From Bifidobacterium aquikefiri (lineage in GTDB: Bacteria > Actinomycetota > Actinomycetes > Actinomycetales > Bifidobacteriaceae): 64,000 nt of DNA. This document shows positions 23,884 to 35,719 of the stretch, one piece after another. A program made the translations under genes and the position numbers. Each line of letters begins with the position of its first letter. Position 1 is the first letter of the stretch. The DNA lies in NCBI RefSeq assembly GCF_002259795.1, contig NZ_MWXA01000003.1:186001-250000 (forward strand). The letters are read 5' to 3'. The notes under the pieces were generated by a model, which saw nothing but the letters and a program-made list of their open reading frames with translations, was not told the origin of the DNA and searched no databases.

Positions 23884-24134
23884 AGTTGTTCCTCCCCATC
23901 TCTGACCGCATATCATTGTAGAAGTATGCTTGGGCGGAATTGTTTGTGAAAAACACGAAATTGTCAACGTCAGCATTCCTCTGACCAGAGCAATGGCTTC
24001 GTGTTGATGCATCAATCGGCACGAGTCGTATTTGTGTTCAAATCATCGAAGTTTCACGAAAGTCATGCATTCCTGCTGCACTGTGGCTAGAGTTTCTTTG
24101 AAATGTCTGGCAACGAAATGGATTGGGAACACTA

Positions 24135-25325
24135 GTGGACAAAGTTGTGATTGTCGCCGCCGTGCGCACCCCCTTCGGAAAATATCGGGGTGCTCTGAAA
24201 GAATGGTCGGCTGCCGATTTGGCACGGCAAGCCCTGATTGCCGCCATGAAGCAGTCGAAGGTACCCGCAGCCAGTGTTGAGGGACTGTATCTTGGCGTTG
24301 CCGTTGCGGCAGGGCTCGGACCAAACGTAGCTCGTACCGTTGCCGTTTCGGCTGGCATGCCAATCGAGTCTCACGCCGTTACCGTCAATGAAGTCTGTGG
24401 ATCGAGCCTGAAAGCTCTGCGTATGGCGCAGCTGAGCATCATGGCGGGCGATGCACAGATGCTCGCCGTTGGGGGTGCCGAAAGCATGACGCGGGCACCG
24501 ATGATTATTCCCTATGACGTTCACCATTGCGCAGAAGACCCTGAACATGGCAGTTCTGCGATGCTTACGCAGCCGGTCAAGGCAATTTTCAAGGATGGAC
24601 TGATCGATAGCTTCTCAGGATCGATCATGGGGCTTACCGCTGAACATATTGCTGATGCCTATTCGGTTTCACGTGAAGCACAGGATGAATTCGCCTATGC
24701 GTCGCATCGCAAGGCAATGCGCGCGGTGTCGCAGCATCATTTTGATGATGAAATCATTCCCATGGAAGGCTTGAGTCACGATGAAACGATTCGACCAGAT
24801 ACATCGTTGTTGAAACTCGCCTCATTGACGCCGGTGTATCGCGAGTATGGCAGTGTCACCGCAGGCAATGCGGCACCGTTGAGCGATGGTGCCGCTATGC
24901 TCATCATCGCCACCGAGAGCAAGGCCGCTTCATTGGGATTGAAGCCTTTAGGATACCTCGGCAGCTATGCAGAGGTTGGCTACGATCCGGCGTATATGGG
25001 ATATGCGCCTTCGATCGCCATTGCGAATCTGCTGAAGCGGTCGAGAAGCAGGATGGAGGATTACGATCTCTATGAAATCACGGAGGCCTTCGCAGCTCAG
25101 GTGATAGCGGTTCGCGATTCACTTCATATACCCGATGATCGGCTCAATATCAATGGTGGATCACTCGCTCTGGGTCATCCCCTGGGGGCAAGCGGAGCGC
25201 GTCTGGTCATCGCACTGCTCAATAATCTCAAGTCGCATGACCTGCACAGGGGTATTGCAGCTCTGTGTATCGGTGGAGGTCAGGGCATTGCGATGGAGGT
25301 CTTTCGGGAGGATCGGACGCTATGA
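24135..25325 (+). CDS. Acetyl-CoA C-acetyltransferase (thiolase)
   Basis: Condenses two acetyl-CoA to acetoacetyl-CoA, the first step of the mevalonate pathway. Thiolase motifs are complete: the nucleophile Cys88 in NEVCGSSLKALRMA, GGAESMTRAP, the catalytic His in NGGSLALGHPLGASG, and the second Cys in LCIGGGQGIAMEV. I chose GTG at 24135, since VDKVVIVAAVRTPFGKYRG matches the usual start of thiolases; a TTG at 24123 would add four residues. The stop overlaps the HMG-CoA reductase start (ATGA), giving a tightly coupled operon. Confidence 0.93.
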   Translation: MDKVVIVAAVRTPFGKYRGALKEWSAADLARQALIAAMKQSKVPAASVEGLYLGVAVAAGLGPNVARTVAVSAGMPIESHAVTVNEVCGSSLKALRMAQLSIMAGDAQMLAVGGAESMTRAPMIIPYDVHHCAEDPEHGSSAMLTQPVKAIFKDGLIDSFSGSIMGLTAEHIADAYSVSREAQDEFAYASHRKAMRAVSQHHFDDEIIPMEGLSHDETIRPDTSLLKLASLTPVYREYGSVTAGNAAPLSDGAAMLIIATESKAASLGLKPLGYLGSYAEVGYDPAYMGYAPSIAIANLLKRSRSRMEDYDLYEITEAFAAQVIAVRDSLHIPDDRLNINGGSLALGHPLGASGARLVIALLNNLKSHDLHRGIAALCIGGGQGIAMEVFREDRTL

Positions 25326-26680
25326 CATCTCAATCAGGAGCACATGCTGCAGTTCACTCTGTGGCTCACGCCGCAGTACAGGCGGCAAGACGTGAAACGC
25401 CCCAGAACATGCCGAAGAAGCTGTATCAGATGAGCATCGAAGAGCGGCTGAGCCATTTGGTCTCGAACGATGTGCTTTCGCGGGATGCCGCAGACGCATA
25501 TCTTGCCAGTGTGGTCGACGATTCCACGAGCCGGATGTCAGAGAACGTGATTGGGGAGCTTGTTTCACCCATTGGGATTGTTGAGAGCATCGAGGTAAAT
25601 GGTGAACGATGCACGGTTCCAATGACGACTGAAGAGCCGTCTGTAGTTGCCGCTGCCAATCATGGAGCGAAGATGGCCGTATCAGGGTTCATCGCAACGA
25701 GCCATCGCGACGGCATATATGGCCAGATCCTTCTGGATGCTCCGAGGACTGGAATGAAGCCTTCCGATTTCAACTGGCAACAACTCAATGATGTCATTCC
25801 CGACCTCATTCGGTTGGTTACCCAACGATTTGATAATCTTTCGAAGCGTGGTGGTGGATTGGTGAGCATTGAGACGCACGAGCATGGCATGAGTTGCGAT
25901 ATGCTCATCAAGGTCAACACTGCTCAGGCTATGGGAGCCAACATCGTCAATTCGATCCTCGAGTGCTTGGTACAGGAGATCGAGCGGGTGTTGCCTGGAC
26001 TCAATGCCATCATGGCGATCGTCAGCAACTACCCGAGTCAGCTGGTCGATGTGGAATCGCGTATACCGTTCGCGCAGTTGGCGAAGACGGAGTCGGCGGG
26101 CAGATCCATCGCCAGAAATATCGATCGAATAGCACATTTTGCCGAGCATAATGCGTATAGGGCAGTCACAAACAATAAAGGCATCATGAATGGCGTTGAT
26201 GCGGTCATTGCGGCCTGTGGCAACGATACGCGCGCGGTCGAGGCGGCTTGTCATCAGCTCGCCGCGCTGTCTGGGCAGTATCTGCCGCTCTCACATTGGC
26301 GTGCCAATGAAGACTCACAGGAGCTCGTCGGCACGATGACGCTAGCTTTGCCGATAGGCGCTGTCGGTGGGGCGATTGCCTCCAGACCTGCAATTCGGCG
26401 CAATATGGAACTGATGCGCAAGCCGGATGTCAGAAGACTCAGCGAACTTGTTGCATCCGTGGGTCTTGCCAACAATCTTGCAGCCTTGCACGCCTTGGCG
26501 GGCGAGGGAATACAACATGGCCATATGCGGCTTCAGGCGGTGCAGACGGCCGTTGCCGTTGGTGCGAACGATGAAGAGATCGCACAGTTGACTGCTCGCA
26601 TGGTAGCTCGATCGGACTATTCGCAAAGCTGGGCGGCTGACGAATTGAAGCGATTAAGGGATGCGCCAGATGCGCAATGA
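25322..26680 (+). CDS. Hydroxymethylglutaryl-CoA reductase
   Basis: Reduces HMG-CoA to mevalonate. This is a class II (bacterial) enzyme of 452 residues with a ~35-residue Ala/His-rich extension. Key residues are visible: the catalytic Glu in PMTTEEPSVVAAA, the Lys in VTNNKGIMNGVDA, and the His in GEGIQHGHMRLQA. ENVIGELVSPIGI is the typical N-terminal signature. Whether it uses NADH or NADPH cannot be told from sequence alone. The ATG at 25322 overlaps the thiolase stop. HMG-CoA synthase follows 90 bp downstream. Confidence 0.95.
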   Translation: MTSQSGAHAAVHSVAHAAVQAARRETPQNMPKKLYQMSIEERLSHLVSNDVLSRDAADAYLASVVDDSTSRMSENVIGELVSPIGIVESIEVNGERCTVPMTTEEPSVVAAANHGAKMAVSGFIATSHRDGIYGQILLDAPRTGMKPSDFNWQQLNDVIPDLIRLVTQRFDNLSKRGGGLVSIETHEHGMSCDMLIKVNTAQAMGANIVNSILECLVQEIERVLPGLNAIMAIVSNYPSQLVDVESRIPFAQLAKTESAGRSIARNIDRIAHFAEHNAYRAVTNNKGIMNGVDAVIAACGNDTRAVEAACHQLAALSGQYLPLSHWRANEDSQELVGTMTLALPIGAVGGAIASRPAIRRNMELMRKPDVRRLSELVASVGLANNLAALHALAGEGIQHGHMRLQAVQTAVAVGANDEEIAQLTARMVARSDYSQSWAADELKRLRDAPDAQ

Positions 26681-26770
26681 CCAGTTCTGAACGTTGCGCC
26701 TGTGCTGCGATTGGCAGCGAATGGGCAGAGTTCGATAGGCCAGAGTTGACATGAAGAGAGAGGTACGTGA

Positions 26771-27967
26771 ATGAGCAGCAATACAGAGGTGCATATTGGC
26801 ATCGACCGCATGGGCATGTTTGTGCCAGAGCAGTATCTCGATGTAGAGGATCTTGCTCGTGCACGACACGTTGAACCGGCAAAATTCACGCGCGGCATCG
26901 GGCAATCTCGCATGAGCGTGCCGCGACACTGCGATGACATCGTGAGTATGGGAGCGAACGCGATTGCGGAGATTCTTCCTGATATTGACATTGATCGTCT
27001 TGGTCTGCTGATTGTGGGAACCGAGAGCGGTATCGATCAGTCGAAGTCGAGCTCGTTGTTCATCAAGCACTTGTTGAATCTTGCGAACCGCATCGAAAGC
27101 TTTGAAATCAAGGAAGCCTGCTTTGGCGCCACGGCAGGGCTCTTTGTTGCATACCATTACGTTGCCGCTCATCCAGATCGAACGGTGCTCGTTGTTGCCA
27201 GCGATGTTGCGCGGTATGGACTGGGAACCGCGGGCGAGGTGACCCAGGGTGCGGGTGCGATTGCGATGCTGGTGAGCGCTGATCCCGATATTCTTGTGCT
27301 CAACGATGATGCTGAGGACTACAGCGATGATATCAACGATTTCTGGCGCCCGAATGGGCATACCGAAGCTTTGGTCGATGGCAAGTATTCAACGCAGGTG
27401 TATCTCGATTTCTTCCGACATGTGTTCGATGAGTATCGTGACAAGACAGCTTTGGGCTTGGATGATTTTGGCGCGCTTCTCTTCCACCTGCCATTTACGA
27501 AGATGGGTATGAAAGCGCTACGTGTAGCTCTTGAAGATGCGGATGTCGATGATCGCAAGCGGCTTGAGCACAATTTTGAGATGAGTGCCAGATATTCCCG
27601 TGATGTGGGAAATCTGTATACCGGTTCGCTGTATTTGAGTTTGCTCAGTTGGCTTGAGCACGCGGATCTGGATCAAGCTGGCAGTGGTGACGGCAGTCTT
27701 GCTGGAACACGAATAGCCCTGTTCAGCTATGGTTCCGGCGCGATGTGCAAGTTTTTCACGGGCCGGATTCAACCGGGTTATCGCCGTGGTCTCCGTGCAG
27801 AAAGCCATGCAAGAATGCTGAATGCACGCAAGCGCCTGACTGTTCAGGAATATGAGCAACTTTTTGATGAATATTATGCAAGCGAAGATGTCCAAACCGA
27901 AAAACCTGAGTCTGGTTTCTATTATGCGGGCGTGAAGCATGACATACGTCAATATTCACGAGCTTAA
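26771..27967 (+). CDS. Hydroxymethylglutaryl-CoA synthase
   Basis: Joins acetyl-CoA and acetoacetyl-CoA to HMG-CoA. The 398-residue thiolase-fold enzyme carries Glu85 (VGTESGIDQSKS), the nucleophile Cys117 (EIKEACFGATAGLFVA) and the His in LLFHLPFTKMG, the known catalytic triad of the bacterial enzymes. The start at ATG 26771 is preceded by GAGAGAGGT. With the thiolase and reductase this completes acetyl-CoA to mevalonate; the mevalonate kinase, phosphomevalonate kinase and decarboxylase genes are not in the window. Confidence 0.95.
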   Translation: MSSNTEVHIGIDRMGMFVPEQYLDVEDLARARHVEPAKFTRGIGQSRMSVPRHCDDIVSMGANAIAEILPDIDIDRLGLLIVGTESGIDQSKSSSLFIKHLLNLANRIESFEIKEACFGATAGLFVAYHYVAAHPDRTVLVVASDVARYGLGTAGEVTQGAGAIAMLVSADPDILVLNDDAEDYSDDINDFWRPNGHTEALVDGKYSTQVYLDFFRHVFDEYRDKTALGLDDFGALLFHLPFTKMGMKALRVALEDADVDDRKRLEHNFEMSARYSRDVGNLYTGSLYLSLLSWLEHADLDQAGSGDGSLAGTRIALFSYGSGAMCKFFTGRIQPGYRRGLRAESHARMLNARKRLTVQEYEQLFDEYYASEDVQTEKPESGFYYAGVKHDIRQYSRA

Positions 27968-28135: not shown

Positions 28136-28187
28136 TTGACAACCAGACAGGGAGCATGCAATTATAAAGATTGAGAATCGTTATCAA
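28136..28187 (+). promoter_or_regulatory. Promoter with Zur/Fur-like operator before the CobW-like gene
   Basis: TTGACA (28136-28141) and a possible extended -10, TGC-AATTAT (28160-28165), are followed by the imperfect palindrome TTGAGAATCGTTATCAA at 28171-28187. It is 15/18 identical, over GAGAAT..TTATCA.TAG, to the site before rpmB2 at 30671. This fits zinc repression by Zur at the transcription start. The upstream part of this 255-bp gap after HMG-CoA synthase has only a weak hairpin with T-rich tail near 27973-28012. Confidence 0.6.
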
Positions 28188-28222
28188 TAGTTTGACATAT
28201 GTAGGACGGTAGGGAACTCGAT

Positions 28223-29524
28223 ATGCCCAAGGTGTTGCTTTGCACTGGTATACAATATTCAACTCAGCTCATGGGGATGTGCGCGCTCGAATGCCCGCAG
28301 CGGCACGATGATGTTACTGAGCATGAACACGGCAATGACAACAATGTAGCGGAAGCGGCAACTGTAGCCGAAACGTTGATCATCTCCTATACGGCACGAT
28401 GTGATGAACATTGCGGTCTGGTTGTGCACAGAAGGATCGGCACACCGTCGGACATGCTCTTCGCCACCAACCTGCATACCGACACAGTGCCATTGGACGA
28501 TTGCTGCCTGAGCTGCACGATCAAGCACGACCTCTATTCCTGGCTTTCCCGTGAATCTGGTGAGGGTATCGCACCTCGCATCATCGTCATACTGCCCAAA
28601 GGGCTGCAGGCGGCTCCCACCGCTGAATATCTGAAGGAAATGGAGCTCGTGCAGGAGGCGTTCCAACCGCAGAAAGCACGTTTTCAGTTTGAATCCATTG
28701 TTGCAGTCCTCGATTCGGCAACCCTGAAGGATTGTCTCTTCGATGATGCGCCATTCCATCAGGATGATGATAGCGATGGGAGCGATCCGAGTCTGATGAG
28801 CAGCAGCTACGAAGACGATGTCGATGAGCGTTGCATCGGGGGAGCTCTTGCGGGTGTGATTGCTGACGCAAACGATGTGCTGCTGCTTCCCAGTATGGAT
28901 TGCGAACAGAGAGACGAGGAATTGTGCAAGCTTGTTGAAGCTTTGGCTTCGGAAAACTGCCACGTTCGTTGTGGTGTTCCCAGCGTCATGCCCAACGTCA
29001 TGCCCAACGTCATGCCCAACGTCATGCCCAACGTCATGCACGCTGGTGTTCCCGGCGGCAGGTGCCCTGAGAACGCAGACAGTGAAGAAAATCAGCCAGA
29101 TGAGTCTGTAACCGGCGATATTACATGGGCATCGCTTGGCCAGGATGTGATTGGTCTGAGCATTCGTTCCCATGCACCACTGCATCCGAGCCGGTTGTCG
29201 GACTTGCTGGCCGACAAGAGCGTGTCAATGCATATTCATGGCCATTTTGCGGTGCCTAACAAGCCATTTTCAGCTTTCATATGGGAGGGTGATCCGGACG
29301 GCTCGATCATTGAGACCGTCGATCGCGGGGTGGTTGATGAAGCACGGTTTGAGACAGAGATTCTAGTCGTCGCTCGTCTGGTGCAAGGCAATCAGAGTGA
29401 CGAGGCGCGTGCGTGGATCAGCCGTTTTGGGAGTCTGCCGGTAACGCGCGAAGAGATGCAACGTCCACTGATGAGTTGGATGGAGCAGACCGACACCTTT
29501 ACACGTTGGGCCTCTATGGACTGA
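28223..29524 (+). CDS. CobW/ZNG1-related protein without P-loop, Mrf (Rv0106)-like
   Basis: A 433-residue protein with the cysteine centre of CobW-type zinc metallochaperones (DDCCLSCTIKHDL, Cys94/95/98) and a C-terminal CobW_C-like region (SRLSDLLADK, HIHGHFAVPNKP). The N-terminus (KVLLCTGIQYSTQLMG) aligns where the GTP-binding P-loop should be, but the GxxGxGKT motif is absent. Mycobacterial Mrf/Rv0106, a zinc-responsive CobW-like factor linked to the zinc-free ribosomal operon and ribosome hibernation, has this same make-up; equivalence is my inference. A Zur-like box lies upstream and the zinc-free ribosomal genes downstream. Four tandem VMPN units (28985-29032) and an acidic loop (HQDDDSDGSD) interrupt it. 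Confidence 0.75.
   Translation: MPKVLLCTGIQYSTQLMGMCALECPQRHDDVTEHEHGNDNNVAEAATVAETLIISYTARCDEHCGLVVHRRIGTPSDMLFATNLHTDTVPLDDCCLSCTIKHDLYSWLSRESGEGIAPRIIVILPKGLQAAPTAEYLKEMELVQEAFQPQKARFQFESIVAVLDSATLKDCLFDDAPFHQDDDSDGSDPSLMSSSYEDDVDERCIGGALAGVIADANDVLLLPSMDCEQRDEELCKLVEALASENCHVRCGVPSVMPNVMPNVMPNVMPNVMHAGVPGGRCPENADSEENQPDESVTGDITWASLGQDVIGLSIRSHAPLHPSRLSDLLADKSVSMHIHGHFAVPNKPFSAFIWEGDPDGSIIETVDRGVVDEARFETEILVVARLVQGNQSDEARAWISRFGSLPVTREEMQRPLMSWMEQTDTFTRWASMD
28985..29044 (+). repeat. In-frame 12-bp tandem repeat in the CobW-like gene
   Basis: GTCATGCCCAAC occurs four times without a mismatch, followed by a degenerate fifth copy. Each unit codes Val-Met-Pro-Asn. Copy-number change would keep the frame, so length may vary between strains. 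Confidence 0.9.
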
Positions 29525-29603
29525 TCGACTGAGAAGTGTTGTTTGAGCCATGTCATTCAATCTCAATGTGACTGCAGCGCCGCTATGGCGATCGGCGAAA
29601 CAG

Positions 29604-30521
29604 CTATACGGTGACTCCGAAGATCTTGCCAATGACCCAGGCAAAGAGCATGGTCGACAGCCCCATGACAACATTGCGAATGATGGCTTTATGCTTTCTC
29701 GTCCCGACTATCTGTGCCGAGATGAAACCTGTCAGCAGCAGGGCGAATGCCACGGCGAGCACGATGAAGCTTACACGGGCGAGGAACGATGCAGGGATTT
29801 GAGAAATCAACAATGGAAGCAATCCGCCGCTTACGAAGGCAAAGAAGGAAGAAATGGCCGCCTGCCAAGGATTGGTGAGTTCGTCCGGATCGATATTGAG
29901 CTCTTCGAGTGCGTGAGCGCGTAGTGCATCATGGTGCATGGCCTCATATGCTGCCTTGTATGCCGTGGGACGGGTCATGCCTTTGGTTTCATAGATCTGT
30001 GTCAGTTCGTCCAGTTCCTCGACGGGAAGGTTGATCAGTTCCCAACGTTCCTTGTCGAGGATACTTTTTTCCGTATCGCGTTGTGCGCTGACGGAGACAT
30101 ATTCGCCTCCGGCCATGGAAAATGCTCCAGCGGAGATGGCGGCAACGCCGGCGATCAGCAATACATGAGGATTGTTGTCGGCTCCAGCAACACCCAAAAT
30201 GGTGCCAGCGACAGAAACGATGCCATCGTTGGCTCCCAGGACTGCAGCGCGAAGGCTGTTGAGCGCTTTTGAGGATTCGTTGGCTTTATTGTGGATTTCG
30301 CCTGCATGAGGCGTAATCTCATCGCGAGATGCAGGAGTCTGTTCGATGCCAAGCCATCCGCCCTGTGCAATCGATGGGATTCTCGTGCGAGACTCGTCCA
30401 CGTAGCGGTCGTTGTGTGAATGCTTGGTGGCCGGGTCATATGGAACATTGACTTGGGTTCTGTGGGAATCGTGATCTGTAACTGGATTGATGTGTGGCTG
30501 CGCGTCAGCATTATTTTCCAT
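29604..30521 (-). CDS. VIT1/CCC1 family metal ion transporter
   Basis: A predicted Fe2+/Mn2+ transporter of the vacuolar iron transporter family, 305 residues. A ~90-residue polar start is followed by the typical first helix SLRAAVLGANDGIVSVAGTILGVAG, then AISAGAFSMAGGEYVSVSAQRDTE, and a cytoplasmic region with acidic and His residues (EELDELTQIYETKG, HHDALRAHALEELNIDPDE). Three C-terminal transmembrane helices close the protein. The ATG at 30521 is four bases after GGGAGAA. It is divergent from the zinc-free ribosomal operon, with the Zur-like box 150 bp upstream of its start, so shared metal control is possible. Confidence 0.9.
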   Translation of the reverse strand: MENNADAQPHINPVTDHDSHRTQVNVPYDPATKHSHNDRYVDESRTRIPSIAQGGWLGIEQTPASRDEITPHAGEIHNKANESSKALNSLRAAVLGANDGIVSVAGTILGVAGADNNPHVLLIAGVAAISAGAFSMAGGEYVSVSAQRDTEKSILDKERWELINLPVEELDELTQIYETKGMTRPTAYKAAYEAMHHDALRAHALEELNIDPDELTNPWQAAISSFFAFVSGGLLPLLISQIPASFLARVSFIVLAVAFALLLTGFISAQIVGTRKHKAIIRNVVMGLSTMLFAWVIGKIFGVTV

Positions 30522-30594
30522 TGGATTCTCCCATTCCCCCGGTGAACAGTGAAACCGTCCGTACCAATCCTAGAAGAGCAATTCTGTTGACTGT

Positions 30595-30620
30595 GTGAAG
30601 TATCGAGGTGAAGTATCGAG
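30595..30620. repeat. Two perfect tandem 13-bp units
   Basis: GTGAAGTATCGAG is repeated exactly in the divergent gap between the VIT gene and rpmB2, followed by a partial third GTGAG. Confidence 0.75.
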
Positions 30621-30666
30621 GTGAGTTCGAAAAACGGTCAATTATGCGACCCGCCAAATTCACTAC

Positions 30667-30695
30667 TTGCGAGAATGATTATCATTAGTTATAGT
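30667..30695 (+). promoter_or_regulatory. Zur-type operator inside the rpmB2 promoter
   Basis: TTGCGA (30667-30672) and TATAGT (30690-30695) are separated by exactly 17 bp. The spacer contains GAGAATGATTATCATTA (30671-30687), with AATGAT/ATCATT as palindromic core, typical of Zur/Fur sites. The predicted start point is 30702-30703, the A of the rpmB2 ATG, and no Shine-Dalgarno precedes the gene, so the mRNA may be leaderless. Confidence 0.75.
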
Positions 30696-30702
30696 GTCAG
30701 AC

Positions 30703-30942
30703 ATGGCTAAAACATGTCAAGTATTAGGAATACACGTCAGTTTCGGCAACTCCGTGTCCCATTCGCACCGGAGAACGCGTCGACGCTTCCAACCGAATCT
30801 GCAGCGCAAGCGCTATTGGGTGCCTTCGCTGAACAGATTCATAGCACTTGAGGTGAGTGCCAGAGGAATCAAGACCATCGATAGAAGAGGAATTGAAACC
30901 GTCGTTGCCCAGTTGCGCGCTCGTGGTGATCTCAGCATCTGA
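30703..30942 (+). CDS. rpmB: Ribosomal protein bL28, zinc-free paralogue
   Basis: A 79-residue L28 of the large subunit. MAKTCQVLG, the basic [21 protein letters not shown] and the ending [17 protein letters not shown] are characteristic. Only one cysteine remains (Cys5), so a four-cysteine zinc site is not possible. It opens a six-gene operon of zinc-independent paralogues that replace zinc-binding ribosomal proteins when zinc is scarce. The start is ATG at 30703, at the predicted transcription start; nine upstream in-frame bases (from 30694) are unlikely to be translated. Confidence 0.93.
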
Positions 30943-30976
30943 GTGAGCTGCATACGGCAGAGAGGAAAGGATGCCC

Positions 30977-31147
30977 ATGGCGTCTCAATCACATGTGAAC
31001 CGTCCAATCATCACGTTGAAATCCACCGAGGGAACCGGTTCGACATATACAACGCGAAAAAATCGTCGGAATACTCCAGACAGACTTGAACTGCTGAAAT
31101 TCGATCCCGTGCTCCATCGCAGAGTTATGTTTCGCGAAACTCGCTGA
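30977..31147 (+). CDS. rpmG: Ribosomal protein bL33, zinc-free paralogue
   Basis: A 56-residue L33 with [36 protein letters not shown] and a short basic end. It has no cysteine, whereas zinc-type L33 has two CxxC pairs. AGGAAAGG lies six bases before the ATG at 30977. It is the second gene of the zinc-independent set, 34 bp after rpmB and 18 bp before rpsN. Confidence 0.93.
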
Positions 31148-31165
31148 GCTGAAAAGAAAGCAAAT

Positions 31166-31471
31166 ATGGCAAAAACCAGCAAAATAATGAAGCAGCGTCA
31201 GCGTGAGAGCATTGTCGAACGCTTTGCTCAACGTCGACGGCAATACAAGAACGACAGCGTAGATCCCCACCTGAGCCAAGAGGAGCGCGATGCTGCGATG
31301 AGTAAGTTGCATGCGCTGCCGCGTAATGCAAGCCCAACACGGTTGCGAAATCGCGATTCGACCGATGGACGTTCGCGCGGCTATCTGCGCAAATTTGGCT
31401 TGTCTCGCATCACGATGCGTGATCTCGCACACCGTGGAGAGTTGCCAGGAGTCACCAAATCGAGTTGGTGA
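31166..31471 (+). CDS. rpsN: Ribosomal protein uS14, long zinc-free form
   Basis: A 101-residue S14 of the small subunit. [24 protein letters not shown] at the start, [32 protein letters not shown] in the middle and a [11 protein letters not shown] end define it. The short zinc-type S14 (~61 residues) has two CxxC pairs; this longer form has none. It sits third in the zinc-independent operon. Confidence 0.95.
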
Positions 31472-31578
31472 TGAACAAGAAACCGTAGAGGCGATTCCCG
31501 TTGCAAAAGGCGAAGGACTCGTCTCTGCGATGCGTCCAGTTGCACTGAATCACCCTAAATATTGTGAAAAGAGGAAGT

Positions 31579-31842
31579 ATGAAACAAGGCATTCATCCAA
31601 CATACGGCTATGTGATCTTCCATGACCGTTCCGCCAACACGATGATGTTGACGCGCTCGACGCTCGCTGCAAAAGCCAGTTCACTGCCAGTCATGAAGTG
31701 GGAAGACGGCAGGGAGTATCCGGTTGTCAATGTAGATGTCTCGTCGAGCAGCCATCCCTTCTATACAGGCAAGAATGTGGTGCTTGACACCGCTGGTCAG
31801 GTGCAGAAGTTCAACAAGCGCTATCAACGCGCTTCGAAGTAG
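31579..31842 (+). CDS. rpmE2: Ribosomal protein bL31, type B (zinc-free)
   Basis: An 87-residue type B L31. [19 protein letters not shown], then [15 protein letters not shown] and [10 protein letters not shown] are diagnostic. It lacks the CxxC of type A. The ATG at 31579 follows GAGGAAG. Type B L31 is induced by zinc limitation in many bacteria, fitting the Zur-like site that heads this operon. Confidence 0.96.
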
Positions 31843-31916
31843 AGATCGGCACAACTGTTGACGATATCCAGAGAGCAAGCAAGGGCAGGAATTACTGGGA
31901 AAGGCGGGAGATCATC

Positions 31917-32039
31917 ATGAAAGTGAAATCGTCCATCCGATCGCTCGCGCGCAGACCGGGTTCAACGGTCGTGCGCCGACGTGGACACGTGTATGTGATC
32001 AACAAGAAGAATCCGAAGTTCAAGGCAAGGCAAGGCTGA
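31917..32039 (+). CDS. rpmJ: Ribosomal protein bL36, zinc-free paralogue
   Basis: A 40-residue basic protein: [39 protein letters not shown]. This is the YkgO-type L36 without the CxxC...CxxxxH zinc motif. GGAAAGGCGGGAG precedes the ATG at 31917. Its stop overlaps the start of rpmF (TGATG), so the two are translationally coupled. Confidence 0.93.
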
Positions 32040-32206
32040 TGGCATTACCAAAATACAAGACTTCGCGAGCGAACACGCATGCTCGTCGAGCCCAATGGAA
32101 GGCGCAGAGCGCGCAACTCCTGACAGTGCGAACACCTGATGGTCGCGATGTGCAGGTGCCGCAGCATCTCGCGGCGGCGGTGCGCAAAGGATACTTCACA
32201 CTGTAA
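32039..32206 (+). CDS. rpmF: Ribosomal protein bL32, zinc-free paralogue
   Basis: A 55-residue L32: [23 protein letters not shown], then a short tail ending in VRKGYFTL. The C-terminal CxxC...CxxC of zinc-type L32 is absent. The ATG overlaps the preceding stop. It is the sixth and last gene of the operon; an intrinsic terminator follows 56 bp later. Confidence 0.92.
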   Translation: MALPKYKTSRANTHARRAQWKAQSAQLLTVRTPDGRDVQVPQHLAAAVRKGYFTL

Positions 32207-32261
32207 GTCGCCGCCGGCCACATGCCGACCGTGCACTATGTGCAGCACCTCAGATGATTCA

Positions 32262-32304
32262 GAGCAGCAATGGCCCATGATAAAGGCCATTACTGCTCTT
32301 TTTC
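32262..32304 (+). terminator. Intrinsic terminator of the zinc-free ribosomal operon
   Basis: GAGCAGCAATGGCC (32262-32275) pairs with 32285-32298 (one mismatch) and is followed by TTTTTCGTT. From here to 32663 I see no gene; this ~360-bp stretch probably holds the promoter and control sites of the following ABC operon, but no clear operator was found. Confidence 0.85.
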
Positions 32305-32663: not shown

Positions 32664-33422
32664 ATGGAGCATGGTTTGGGGATTGCGTGGAAATCGGTTT
32701 CGAAAACATACAATGACGGAACTGTCGCAGTAAACAACGTCTCTGTGACTGCCGACGAGCATAGGACGCTCGCGCTGGTGGGATCTTCAGGTTCCGGCAA
32801 GACCACCCTGTTGCAGATGGTCAACCGTATGGTTACTCCCAATTCGGGTACGGTCCTGATTCAAGGGCAGGACAATCAGGGGATGAATCCCGTCACGTTG
32901 CGTCGTTCGATAGGATATGTCCTGCAGAATGGCGGACTCCTGCCAAATAAAACCGTTCTTGACAACATCGCCACAGTGCCGGTGCTTCAAGGAACGAGAC
33001 GCAAGGATGCGAGAGTTCATGCCTTGGAGCTTCTTGATGAGGTTGGACTTGAGAAAAGCATACAGAACCGCTATCCATCCGAACTTTCGGGCGGCCAGCA
33101 GCAAAGGGTCGGTGTTGCCAGGGCGCTTGCTGCAAATCCAGAAATACTCCTGATGGATGAACCCTTTGCAGCCGTGGATCCAATTGTCAGAAGAAACCTT
33201 CAGGATGAATTGCTCAGACTTCAATCGGAAATTGGCAAGACCATCGTGTTTGTCACCCACGATATCGATGAGGCCTTCTATCTGGGAGACAAGGTTGCAC
33301 TGCTGCGTCCGGGTGGCACGCTTGCACAGGTTGGCACAGCAAGGGAATTGATCGATCATCCGGCAGATTCGTTCGTCGCTTCATTCATCAATGCAGGATG
33401 CTTGAGGAGCGAGCTGCAATGA
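32664..33422 (+). CDS. OpuCA-type osmoprotectant ABC transporter ATPase
   Basis: The ATPase of a quaternary-amine (glycine betaine/carnitine/choline) importer. Walker A GSSGSGKTT, a Q-loop (YVLQNGGLLPNKTV), the signature LSGGQQQRVGVARAL, Walker B ILLMDEPFAAVDP and the H-loop VFVTHDIDEAF are complete. At 252 residues it lacks the C-terminal CBS-domain pair found in the longer OpuCA proteins that sense ionic strength. The stop overlaps the next start (ATGA). Confidence 0.92.
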   Translation: MEHGLGIAWKSVSKTYNDGTVAVNNVSVTADEHRTLALVGSSGSGKTTLLQMVNRMVTPNSGTVLIQGQDNQGMNPVTLRRSIGYVLQNGGLLPNKTVLDNIATVPVLQGTRRKDARVHALELLDEVGLEKSIQNRYPSELSGGQQQRVGVARALAANPEILLMDEPFAAVDPIVRRNLQDELLRLQSEIGKTIVFVTHDIDEAFYLGDKVALLRPGGTLAQVGTARELIDHPADSFVASFINAGCLRSELQ

Positions 33423-34078
33423 ACTGGCTGATCCTCAATTGCGCGCAGATACTGCATTATGCGCTGCAACACATGCTATTAAGCGTATTTCCGATACTTC
33501 TGGGTACGCTTGTTGCCGTGCCATTGGCAAGATTGGCGAATGGATTCAGACTGACTCGAAGCAGCATATACGTGGCATCCAGCGTGCTGTATGCGATTCC
33601 TTCTTTGCCGCTGCTGATATTCCTGCCCGCGCTGCTGAGGACGAAGATATTGAACCCGGTGAACATCGAAGTTGCACTGACCATATATGCGATTGCCATC
33701 ATGCTCACCTCGGCTTCGCATGCATTTCTTTCCATAGATCCGAGCGTGATACATGCCGCTGATGCCATGGGATTCGGAGCATGGAAGAAGTTCTTCCAAG
33801 TTGAGCTCCCCTTGGCCGGCTCTCAGCTTCTTGCAGGTATTCGAGTGGTTTCCGTGAGCACGATCAGCCTCGTCACGGTGGGATCCCTCATCGGTGTGAA
33901 CTCTCTGGGATTCTTCTTCCTTGAGGGGTATCAGAGAGATTTTCCATTGGAAATCTGGGTTGGCATTGCCGCTACGGCATTGATTGCCTTGCTGTTCGAT
34001 CAGATTCTGGCCATCTGTGGTCGAGTGCTTATGCCGTGGAATCATCGCAGGGTTACACGGGAAAGGTCAGCGGCATGA
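33419..34078 (+). CDS. OpuCB-type osmoprotectant ABC permease
   Basis: A 219-residue membrane subunit with the binding-protein-dependent transport domain. Helices are evident at MLLSVFPILLGTLVAVPLA, VASSVLYAIPSLPLLIFL and VALTIYAIAIMLTS. The coupling region (DAADAMGFGAWKKFFQVELPLAG-like, read here as IHAADAMGFGAWKKFF then VELPLAG) is typical of OpuCB/OpuBB. The ATG at 33419 overlaps the ATPase stop and its own stop overlaps the next permease start, so three genes are translationally coupled. Confidence 0.9.
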   Translation: MNWLILNCAQILHYALQHMLLSVFPILLGTLVAVPLARLANGFRLTRSSIYVASSVLYAIPSLPLLIFLPALLRTKILNPVNIEVALTIYAIAIMLTSASHAFLSIDPSVIHAADAMGFGAWKKFFQVELPLAGSQLLAGIRVVSVSTISLVTVGSLIGVNSLGFFFLEGYQRDFPLEIWVGIAATALIALLFDQILAICGRVLMPWNHRRVTRERSAA

Positions 34079-34752
34079 ACGTATTTTCGCAGACATTGCT
34101 CTGGCTCGGCGATGCATCCAATTGGGAAGGAACAGGGGGAATCAGCGTCCGCCTTGTTCAGCACATGCAATATTCCTTGGCGACACTTGCCATCACCTGC
34201 GTGATTGCCATTCCTCTTGCTTGCTATATCGGACACTTCGGCAGGGCTCTCTTTGTGATTCCTGTGATCAATGCGTTGCGTGCACTGCCAACGCTGGGAA
34301 TGCTCAGCGCGCTCGCCCTGATATTTGGACTGGGAATATCGGCTCCCATGATCGTAATGGTGATGTTTGCAATTCCACCGGTACTGGCTGCCACATATTC
34401 AGGCATAGCCAATGTGAGTCAGACCACCACCCATGCGATGAGGGCGATAGGTTTCAGTGAATGGCAGATTCTGTGGAATGTCGAGCTGCCGACCGCATTC
34501 CCTGCAATTCTTGGAGGCATTCGCTCGGCATTCACGCAGATCATTGCCACATGGACGGTTGCAGCATTCTTGCCGGTTGGGGGATTGGGACGCTTCTTGA
34601 TCGATGGGCTGGCCATTCGTGATTACTCGCAGATGCTTGGGGCATCATTCCTTGTCATTGGACTTTCCATCGCAGTCGATGTACTCATGTTGATCGTGCA
34701 GAACACGATTGAGAGACATTCGCGATATTCGCAGCTGACAACTCAATCCTAA
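34075..34752 (+). CDS. OpuCD-type osmoprotectant ABC permease
   Basis: The second permease, 225 residues, pairing with the previous one as a heterodimer in the membrane. It shows ATLAITCVIAIPLACYIG, INALRALPTLGMLSALAL and the coupling motif MRAIGFSEWQILWNVELP. It closes with VDVLMLIVQNTIERHSR. The ATG at 34075 overlaps the previous stop (ATGA). The binding-protein gene follows after 49 bp with its own ribosome binding site. Confidence 0.9.
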   Translation: MNVFSQTLLWLGDASNWEGTGGISVRLVQHMQYSLATLAITCVIAIPLACYIGHFGRALFVIPVINALRALPTLGMLSALALIFGLGISAPMIVMVMFAIPPVLAATYSGIANVSQTTTHAMRAIGFSEWQILWNVELPTAFPAILGGIRSAFTQIIATWTVAAFLPVGGLGRFLIDGLAIRDYSQMLGASFLVIGLSIAVDVLMLIVQNTIERHSRYSQLTTQS

Positions 34753-34801
34753 GCGATACGTAAATCTATACACAGAGCAATGCAACAAGAAGGGGAGCAA
34801 T

Positions 34802-35719
34802 ATGAGTTCGTTTGGAAGAAAACTCATTGGGGGAGTACTGGCAGGAGTGGTGATGATGGGGACGGTTGGCTGCGGATCCTCCAATCCACTTGATTCCTCA
34901 TCGTCACAGGAGAGCGATGCATCAACGATCACGATCGGCTCCGCGAACTTCGCGGAAAGTGAGATACTTGCCAACATGTATGTGCAAGCCCTCGCATCAC
35001 ATGGCATTCATGCCGCATTGAAGCCAGATATTGGAGCGCGCGACGTATATATTGCCGCACTCAAGGATGGATCGATAGATCTGGTGCCCGAGTACACCGG
35101 TAATCTGTTGCAGTATTTTGACAAGGATTCCACGGCGCACAGTGCCAGTGACGTCTATTCGGAGCTGAAGAAGGCGCTCCCCAGCAAATTCGCAGTGCTG
35201 GATCAAGCAAAGGCCGAGGATTCCGACTCGCTCAACGTGACGAAATCCTATAGCGAGCAGCATCATGTCACCAGCATCGGCGATCTTTCCAAGATCAATG
35301 GACTCAAGATTGCCGCCGCTCCGGAATTTGCCACGCGACCATATGGCATCACAGGACTGAAACAGCAGTATGGAGTCGATGCCACCCTGATTCCAATCAA
35401 CGATGGCGGTGGAGCGACTACCATCAAGGCACTGCTCAATGGAACGGTGCAGATGGCAAATATCAATACAACATCGCCGAGCATCAAGACGAACAATCTC
35501 GTGACACTCAAGGATCCGCTGCAGATGATTCTTCCGCAGCGCGTGATCCCTCTGATCTCGAAATCCGCTGAATCAGACAAGGTCACCAGCGTACTCAACG
35601 AAGTGCAGAGCAAGCTGACAACACAGGATCTGATGACGATGAACGGCGAGAGCATCAACGACAAGGAATCGGCCTCCGCGATAGCGAAGCACTGGCTACA
35701 GACGTACAAGCTTGTGTGA
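34802..35719 (+). CDS. Osmoprotectant-binding lipoprotein (OpuCC/ProX type)
   Basis: A 305-residue lipoprotein. The leader GGVLAGVVMMGTVGCGSSN ends at a lipidated cysteine, then a Ser-rich linker. The quaternary-amine-binding domain begins ITIGSANFAESEILANMY, followed by VPEYTGNLLQYF, KINGLKIAAAPEFATRPYG and the C-terminal lobe. AAGGGGAGC precedes the ATG. With the three upstream genes it forms a complete importer for compatible solutes such as betaine or choline; the exact ligand cannot be read from sequence. Confidence 0.92.
   Translation: MSSFGRKLIGGVLAGVVMMGTVGCGSSNPLDSSSSQESDASTITIGSANFAESEILANMYVQALASHGIHAALKPDIGARDVYIAALKDGSIDLVPEYTGNLLQYFDKDSTAHSASDVYSELKKALPSKFAVLDQAKAEDSDSLNVTKSYSEQHHVTSIGDLSKINGLKIAAAPEFATRPYGITGLKQQYGVDATLIPINDGGGATTIKALLNGTVQMANINTTSPSIKTNNLVTLKDPLQMILPQRVIPLISKSAESDKVTSVLNEVQSKLTTQDLMTMNGESINDKESASAIAKHWLQTYKLV

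Follow-up and report, generated by a model that had tools for sequence, protein, structure and literature searches.

What does a run of ribosomal protein genes stripped of zinc-binding motifs do in Bifidobacterium, and why does it stand beside a gene for a CobW-like protein? The question is raised by a locus in Bifidobacterium aquikefiri (positions 186,001 to 250,000 of contig NZ_MWXA01000003.1; these 64,000 nucleotides are hereafter the window), for which a preliminary description had proposed a compact zinc-starvation island resembling the Zur- and Mrf-linked operon of mycobacteria. Judged from sequence, we regard the locus with high confidence as an island of the type known from Actinobacteria, which is repressed by Zur and spares zinc by remodelling ribosomes. 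The observations behind this assessment are the genes themselves, their missing motifs, zinc-type paralogues of all the proteins but L36, the boxes, homology, gene order, co-occurrence and purifying selection.

We propose that, with sufficient zinc, Zur would occupy both palindromes of the island and block both promoters. When zinc falls, the repressor would come off and six zinc-free ribosomal proteins would be made, which would replace their zinc-binding counterparts in new ribosomes and thereby save zinc. The companion protein would be an Mrf-type pseudo-GTPase with a CobW/YjiA fold, a CxxC metal site and no P-loop; it may assist HPF, the cell's only hibernation factor and a long-form one, in binding zinc-free ribosomes, while zinc at the CxxC would determine how stable the companion protein is. 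Zur binding, the zinc response, incorporation into ribosomes and HPF recruitment are steps that we infer, among which Zur control and ribosomal protein replacement are strongly supported, while hibernation factor recruitment is plausible by analogy with mycobacteria.

Genes, boxes and promoters of the island

The seven genes of the preliminary description are present at 28136–32303, as seen in the DNA and open reading frame lists and assigned with Pfam and NCBIfam. Family E-values for the six ribosomal proteins range from 4e-6 (L32) to 1e-37 (S14), and CxxC is absent from all six, with one Cys in L28 and none in the other five, which bears out the operon as first read. One correction applies: genes and coordinates hold, but a VIT1-family gene is interposed between the Mrf-like gene and the operon. 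The features are as follows, in window coordinates.

28136–28165, plus strand: promoter-like site of the Mrf-like gene (TTGACA, 18 nucleotides, AATTAT), 10/12 in a consensus scan
28172–28189, plus strand: Zur-type palindrome 1 (strict 15-mer 28172–28186), by pattern match
28223–29524, plus strand: putative Mrf-type (COG0523-like, P-loop-less) protein, long form, 433 residues, from NCBIfam MRF, hhalign, tree, fold and dN/dS
28502–28516, plus strand: CCLSC motif (C94, C95, C98), candidate zinc site, from Cys invariance in alignments
28979–29039, plus strand: in-frame 12-bp tandem repeat (VMPN, about five copies) between the two domains of the Mrf-like protein
29604–30521, minus strand: VIT1-family transporter gene between the island halves, Pfam VIT1 4e-64
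30667–30695, plus strand: predicted promoter of the ribosomal operon (TTGCGA, 17 nucleotides, TATAGT), ending 7 nucleotides before the L28 ATG
30670–30687, plus strand: Zur-type palindrome 2 (strict 15-mer 30670–30684), over the −35 end and spacer, by pattern match
30703–30942, plus strand: zinc-free L28, PF00830 1.6e-25
30971–31147, plus strand: zinc-free L33, PF00471 1.1e-17
31166–31471, plus strand: zinc-free long-type S14, NF006477 1.1e-37
31579–31842, plus strand: type B L31, NF002462 2.2e-33
31917–32039, plus strand: type B L36, NF002021 1.2e-20
32039–32206, plus strand: zinc-free L32, PF01783 1.6e-6 over residues 2–27; N-terminal half kept and zinc ribbon lost in alignment with the zinc-type copy
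32261–32303, plus strand: predicted intrinsic terminator of the operon, hairpin and T-run, −22.8 kcal/mol, z −5.5, unlisted by the consensus scan

The two palindromes, TGAGAATCGTTATCA and CGAGAATGATTATCA, are identical at 12 of 15 positions, and by sequence match both fit the actinobacterial Zur consensus of 7-1-7 geometry, TGAAAATGATTTTCA (PMC2823685; this and the other PMC sources are cited for the excerpts available to us). The claim of two near-identical Zur/Fur-like palindromes stands above chance: in dinucleotide-preserving shuffles of the 280 upstream bases, an equally good consensus match arose in 5/500 upstream of Mrf and 0/500 upstream of L28. The 18-base pattern, picked after the sites had been seen, matches the window twice against 0.27 expected, and at least two matches occurred in 4/100 shuffles. 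Across 27 of the 30 fetched Mrf loci (L010, L025 and L026 were left out), the best consensus match upstream of Mrf scored 13–17/18 in every case, a level of 13 being reached by 1.8% of 2700 shuffles.

At genome scale, strict boxes number seven in the 2.41 Mb of the window's genome, compared with none for a reversed-pattern control (0–9 in the other 17 genomes). Two lie at the island and four within putative open reading frames of at least 90 residues; the remaining intergenic one (G000:C17:172021; L184 position 3022) stands upstream of a D-lactate dehydrogenase gene assigned by Pfam. Thirteen genomes with the island hold 2–10 strict boxes each, versus 0–1 in five genomes without it.

The L28 box overlaps the last bases of TTGCGA and extends over the spacer that precedes TATAGT. 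Since a TATA-like hexamer was read by eye close before the ATG in 24 L28 genes, found by pattern among 31 sources, a leaderless L28 mRNA is predicted; in Corynebacterium glutamicum, Zur boxes overlap promoters, some of them leaderless (PMC2823685). The promoter-like site of the Mrf-like gene is weak, because its region gave four such sites against 4.0 expected. An Rfam scan returned no match at the gathering threshold. The VMPN repeat may vary in copy number and is absent from the closest relative, G130.

Might the island be a decayed relic, a set of diverged duplicates without function? Its presence in only 36/189 genomes, the high divergence of the Mrf-like protein and the repeat expansion in the window would suit such a history. 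All eight genes, however, appear to be under purifying selection, with dN/dS (the ratio of nonsynonymous to synonymous substitution rates) of 0.18–0.20 for Mrf and 0.00–0.12 for the others (the L33 value from G141 resting on 17 codons), and gene order and promoters are conserved, which makes decay exceedingly improbable.

Zinc-type paralogues, distribution and the zinc link

If the operon encodes spare proteins, zinc-type copies should be encoded elsewhere, and the preliminary description had made their presence its test. Cysteine-bearing copies were read in the window's genome for L31 (CSCG...CAKC), L33 (CTEC...CPRC), S14 (CQVC...CRIC) and L32 (CPNC...CPSC); L28 gave two matches there, the letters of a cysteine-bearing L28 being read only in the congener G149. 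Paralogues were counted in 46 genomes, comprising 36 island carriers and 10 of 21 non-carrier congeners. All 36 carriers gave at least two S14 matches and two for L33, compared with one each in 10/10 non-carriers; L31 is double in 31/36 carriers and single in 10/10 non-carriers.

The carriers are drawn from 189 genomes of the family, in 36 of which the island occurs with both halves together; the other 153 showed neither half, five of them giving no L28 at all. Protein search alone placed an Mrf-like gene in 33 genomes and L28 twice or more in 35, the Mrf search being a single diverged query that misses some short forms. An island without Mrf, as first suggested by an extra L28 and no Mrf match in G053, G066 and G081, was ruled out when short Mrf genes were found in the DNA, that of G053 being cut by a contig end. 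Conversely, G109, an assembly of 360 contigs, gave Mrf without an L28 match, but zinc-free S14, L33 and L31 lie on a small contig. With these four cases settled, the halves therefore co-occur in 36/36.

At least 20 carriers are named, all of them Bifidobacterium found with one peptide pattern of short reach, and they include B. psychraerophilum, B. mongoliense, B. tissieri, B. callitrichos, B. hapali and B. catenulatum subsp. kashiwanohense. The usual layout in these relatives is operon, Zur box and divergent Mrf, and a strict box lies between L28 and Mrf in 19 of the 20 named loci. The window's clade (G000, the window's own genome, with G130 and G141) instead has VIT1 between the halves, with a strict box at both halves in G000 and G130 and on the Mrf side only in G141. 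Within flanks of up to 5 kb, the 20 named loci have a ZnuA-like gene in 16, ZinT in 13 and a Zur/Fur-type gene in 9, some of the last being paralogues of 40–45% identity and not the Zur orthologue; the baits were drawn from these same genomes, and ZnuA and ZnuA-ZinT fusion examples were confirmed by Pfam. In G130, genes for a ZnuA-ZinT fusion and for an ABC ATPase, both assigned by Pfam, follow a Zur box (L186). The proposed zinc link is supported by relatives, in which these genes have Zur boxes and genes for ZnuA, ZinT and Zur/Fur proteins as neighbours. As a separate observation, B. hapali carries a second zinc-free operon (L107; G050:C16) behind its own Zur box, with L28, S14, L31, L36 and L32, no L33 match and then a Fur-family gene; its genome gives three L28 matches.

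The window's genome encodes a Zur; its best matches among solved structures are 3mwm, which we take to be Streptomyces coelicolor Zur, and Mycobacterium tuberculosis FurB (2o03). A Zur orthologue of at least 57% identity was found in 45/46 genomes tested. Three Fur-family proteins are encoded in the window's genome, Fur and Zur boxes are similar, and VIT1 lies inside the island, so the boxes could in principle be bound by Fur or another family member and the island could answer iron or another metal. Against this, the proteins saved are zinc proteins, relatives have ZnuA and ZinT in the island, and the box geometry fits the actinobacterial Zur consensus; we consider regulation by Fur or another family member very unlikely.

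Several findings count against Zur-controlled zinc sparing in the window. Its island has no match to a ZnuA, ZinT or Zur bait nearby (best E 0.48), and the ZnuA-ZinT gene of G130 is missing at the matching place (L218) in the window's genome. The Zur gene is located away from the island on a different contig, with purE/purK-like genes beside it as judged by eye. Nor does Zur track the island: its loss from island-free genomes was ruled out, with the orthologue present in 10/10 tested. Finally, neither a cysteine-bearing L36 nor IF1 was found in C16:72000-97000 of the window's genome; because IF1 is absent there too, the infA-rpmJ block probably lies elsewhere. With a zinc-free protein set beside a relative of Mrf, zinc-starvation ribosome swapping nevertheless very probably takes place also in some members of this genus of gut and food bacteria.

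The Mrf-like protein and its probable role

Does the CobW-like protein act as Mrf does, or as a zinc-handling GTPase? The 433-residue protein matches Pfam cobW at E 0.013 and NCBIfam MRF (NF047431) at 6e-7 over residues 40–174. Its N-terminus reads VLLCTGIQYSTQ in place of the CobW GFLGxGKT, and CCLSCTIKHDL in place of GCICCTLRED. We compared Bifidobacterium proteins with three groups from 30 Mrf/CobW loci of the phylum: 11 mycobacterial-type (f7, above the MRF cut-off), six of a group taken as Streptomyces (f6) and 13 canonical homologues. GxxxxGK[TS] is absent from 29/29 Bifidobacterium, 11/11 mycobacterial-type and 6/6 f6 proteins, and present in 13/13 of the canonical ones. The P-loop is therefore missing, as first noted, but its loss is no peculiarity of the window protein, being common to Mrf. 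CCx[STA]C occurs in 29/29 Bifidobacterium proteins, with the three Cys invariant in alignment A1 (21 rows) and the overlapping A2 (18 rows); CxxCT occurs in 10/11 mycobacterial-type proteins (L119 had no pattern match), and f6 proteins retain CACC (6/6). Rv0106 has neither GTPase motif and carries CXSC, and loss of its GTPase activity has been argued (PMC2770081). On sequence comparison, the lost P-loop, and CxxC for CxCC, are traits of Mrf itself.

Profile comparison points the same way. With hhalign, the long Bifidobacterium forms align with mycobacterial-type Mrf at 3.6e-19 (365 columns, end to end), with canonical COG0523 at 1.3e-13 and with f6 at 1.2e-7. In an unrooted 50-row tree, the Bifidobacterium proteins fall on the same side as mycobacterial-type Mrf (support 94/84), and all P-loop-less proteins are separated from canonical ones (100/99). 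The likeness to the mycobacterial arrangement extends to the protein and, in relatives of the window, to the gene layout, and the CobW-like protein is a diverged relative of mycobacterial Mrf, the nearest of the three groups. An AlphaFold model (predicted local distance difference test, pLDDT, 67.5; predicted template-modelling score, pTM, 0.56) gave only three Foldseek matches at E 0.001 or better, all of them YjiA entries, including Zn-bound YjiA at 2.4e-8, with low template-modelling scores of 0.26–0.34; a PDB profile search with Mrf gave no relevant match.

According to a 2026 review, Mrf helps Mpy bind zinc-free ribosomes, and Clp turns over Mrf, a protein with a CXXC motif, when it has zinc bound (PMC13418864). 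By analogy, we lean slightly towards the Bifidobacterium protein acting as Mrf does in mycobacteria, bringing HPF onto zinc-free ribosomes. A target exists, since the window's genome encodes one HPF, of long form as judged by eye.

This assignment also has evidence to answer. The MRF score of 28.7 bits lies far below the 375-bit cut-off, and the long forms share 16% identity with mycobacterial-type Mrf. Short forms, described below, show no more than a weak match to it (1.7e-7 over 136 columns; 0.05–0.2 for the other two groups). Mycobacterial-type Mrf is itself nearer canonical COG0523 (1.5e-45) and f6 (8e-40) than to the Bifidobacterium forms, and the grouping with Mrf is not starred in the tree and sits on a long branch. 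HPF, present once in each of 46/46 genomes, is universal and therefore does not track Mrf. Some ribosomal paralogue also lies near 6/13 canonical P-loop homologues.

The last point, together with the YjiA-like fold, the kept CxxC and the frequency of COG0523 proteins in Zur regulons (PMC2823685, PMC6103462), speaks for a different division of labour, in which the operon would be Zur-controlled and zinc-sparing but the CobW-like protein would be a zinc chaperone or zinc-allocation factor in the COG0523/YciC role. We consider this unlikely, though a serious contender: the P-loop that all canonical homologues have is missing from every Bifidobacterium protein, CxCC is changed in the way seen in Rv0106, a protein argued to have lost GTPase activity, the canonical proteins are farther by profile, and L28 is nearby at only 2/13 of their loci.

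The size of the protein raises a further alternative. Ten complete genes encode long forms of 419–540 residues (the window, psychraerophilum and tissieri/catulorum/pluvialisilvae clades, and mongoliense), and the C-terminal region is likewise present in the cut gene of G109. In 25/36 carriers Mrf is short and without the C-terminal domain: 18 complete genes encode 255–288 residues and one ends at 181, G066, G081 and G173 encode near 300, G021 and G114 were judged by frame length alone, and G053 is cut. The frame ending at 181 residues belongs to B. rousetti (L162 / L030), compared with 259 in B. callitrichos, and may reflect decay or sequencing error. An N-terminal domain alone in these carriers (or a cut gene judged so), and strict co-occurrence with the zinc-free operon but none with universal HPF, would fit a protein that serves zinc-free ribosomes independently of HPF, for example by assisting their assembly or quality control. 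Mpy recruitment has, however, been reported for the mycobacterial relative, whose gene order is the same (PMC13418864), and we hold such an HPF-independent role to be improbable.

Returning to the Mrf-like role, the C-terminal CobW domain is lost in most carriers with gene order, Zur box and co-occurrence intact. From this we venture, with less than even confidence, that zinc-free ribosomes throughout Actinobacteria may have P-loop-less Mrf-type proteins, and not GTPase zinc chaperones, as their regular partners, and that the CxxC domain at the N-terminus may suffice by itself. If so, the short proteins would act as a minimal adaptor for ribosome hibernation that senses zinc. Natural one-domain forms make it testable which part of Mrf acts and whether nucleotide is involved.

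Known systems and neighbouring genes

The closest known counterpart is the Zur operon of M. smegmatis, rpmB-rpmG-rpsN-rpsR (MSMEG_6068-6065), with Mrf (MSMEG_6069) and rpmE2. The two share the order L28-L33-S14, Zur boxes (at −58 and −57 of rpmB and the Mrf gene in M. smegmatis; PMC7174638), a P-loop-less CxxC CobW-like gene and, in relatives of the window, a divergent layout. The Bifidobacterium operon differs in lacking S18, in adding L36 and L32, in holding L31 inside the L28 operon and not behind Mrf, in its predicted leaderless L28, and in the VIT1 insertion of the window's clade. In the window, with VIT1 between, Mrf and operon run in the same direction behind a box each, whereas relatives show the divergent, mycobacterial-like layout. 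All 11 mycobacterial-type loci have L28 and L33 divergent from Mrf and L31 on the other side; S14 is divergent in 10 of them, and 9 have a strict box.

S. coelicolor has a Zur-controlled zinc-free paralogue set too (rpmE2, rpmF2, rpmB2, rpmG2, rpsN2 and rpsR2; PMC6103462), and L28, S14, L33 and L31 lie near a P-loop-less CobW-like gene in 6/6 f6 loci. The Streptomyces set differs in gene order and in a CobW-like protein with CACC, not CxxC. Rv0106 and Mrf (NF047431) resemble the window protein in the lost P-loop, the CxxC (CXSC) and two domains end to end, in contrast to the single domain of most Bifidobacterium carriers. The COG0523 GTPases YjiA, YciC and CobW share its predicted fold, but the window protein has neither P-loop nor CxCC. 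The kind of system is thus known in mycobacteria and streptomycetes, and the local variations are the six-protein operon, the shortened Mrf and the VIT1 insert.

In Bifidobacterium, we found no description of a zinc-sparing island among the papers listed by a literature search, judged from titles and abstract openings, with subscription journals thinly covered. The available portion of an actinobacterial Zur regulon reconstruction that includes B. longum names ribosomal paralogues for other genera and not for B. longum (PMC2823685), and the excerpted text of a B. kashiwanohense paper mentions ZnuA and ZinT and no zinc regulon (PMC5219805). On our reading, zinc-dependent replacement of ribosomes, and possibly hibernation under zinc control, would reach into part of the genus, with B. 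catenulatum subsp. kashiwanohense among the carriers, and the genus offers both carriers and non-carriers for comparison.

The island is flanked by genes of other pathways. Directly upstream (24123–27967), thiolase, HMG-CoA reductase and HMG-CoA synthase genes are adjacent and correspond by Pfam to the early mevalonate pathway. Directly downstream (32664–35719) lie genes for an ABC ATPase, two permeases and an OpuAC-type binding protein, a transporter of glycine-betaine type with Pfam assignments for three of the four.

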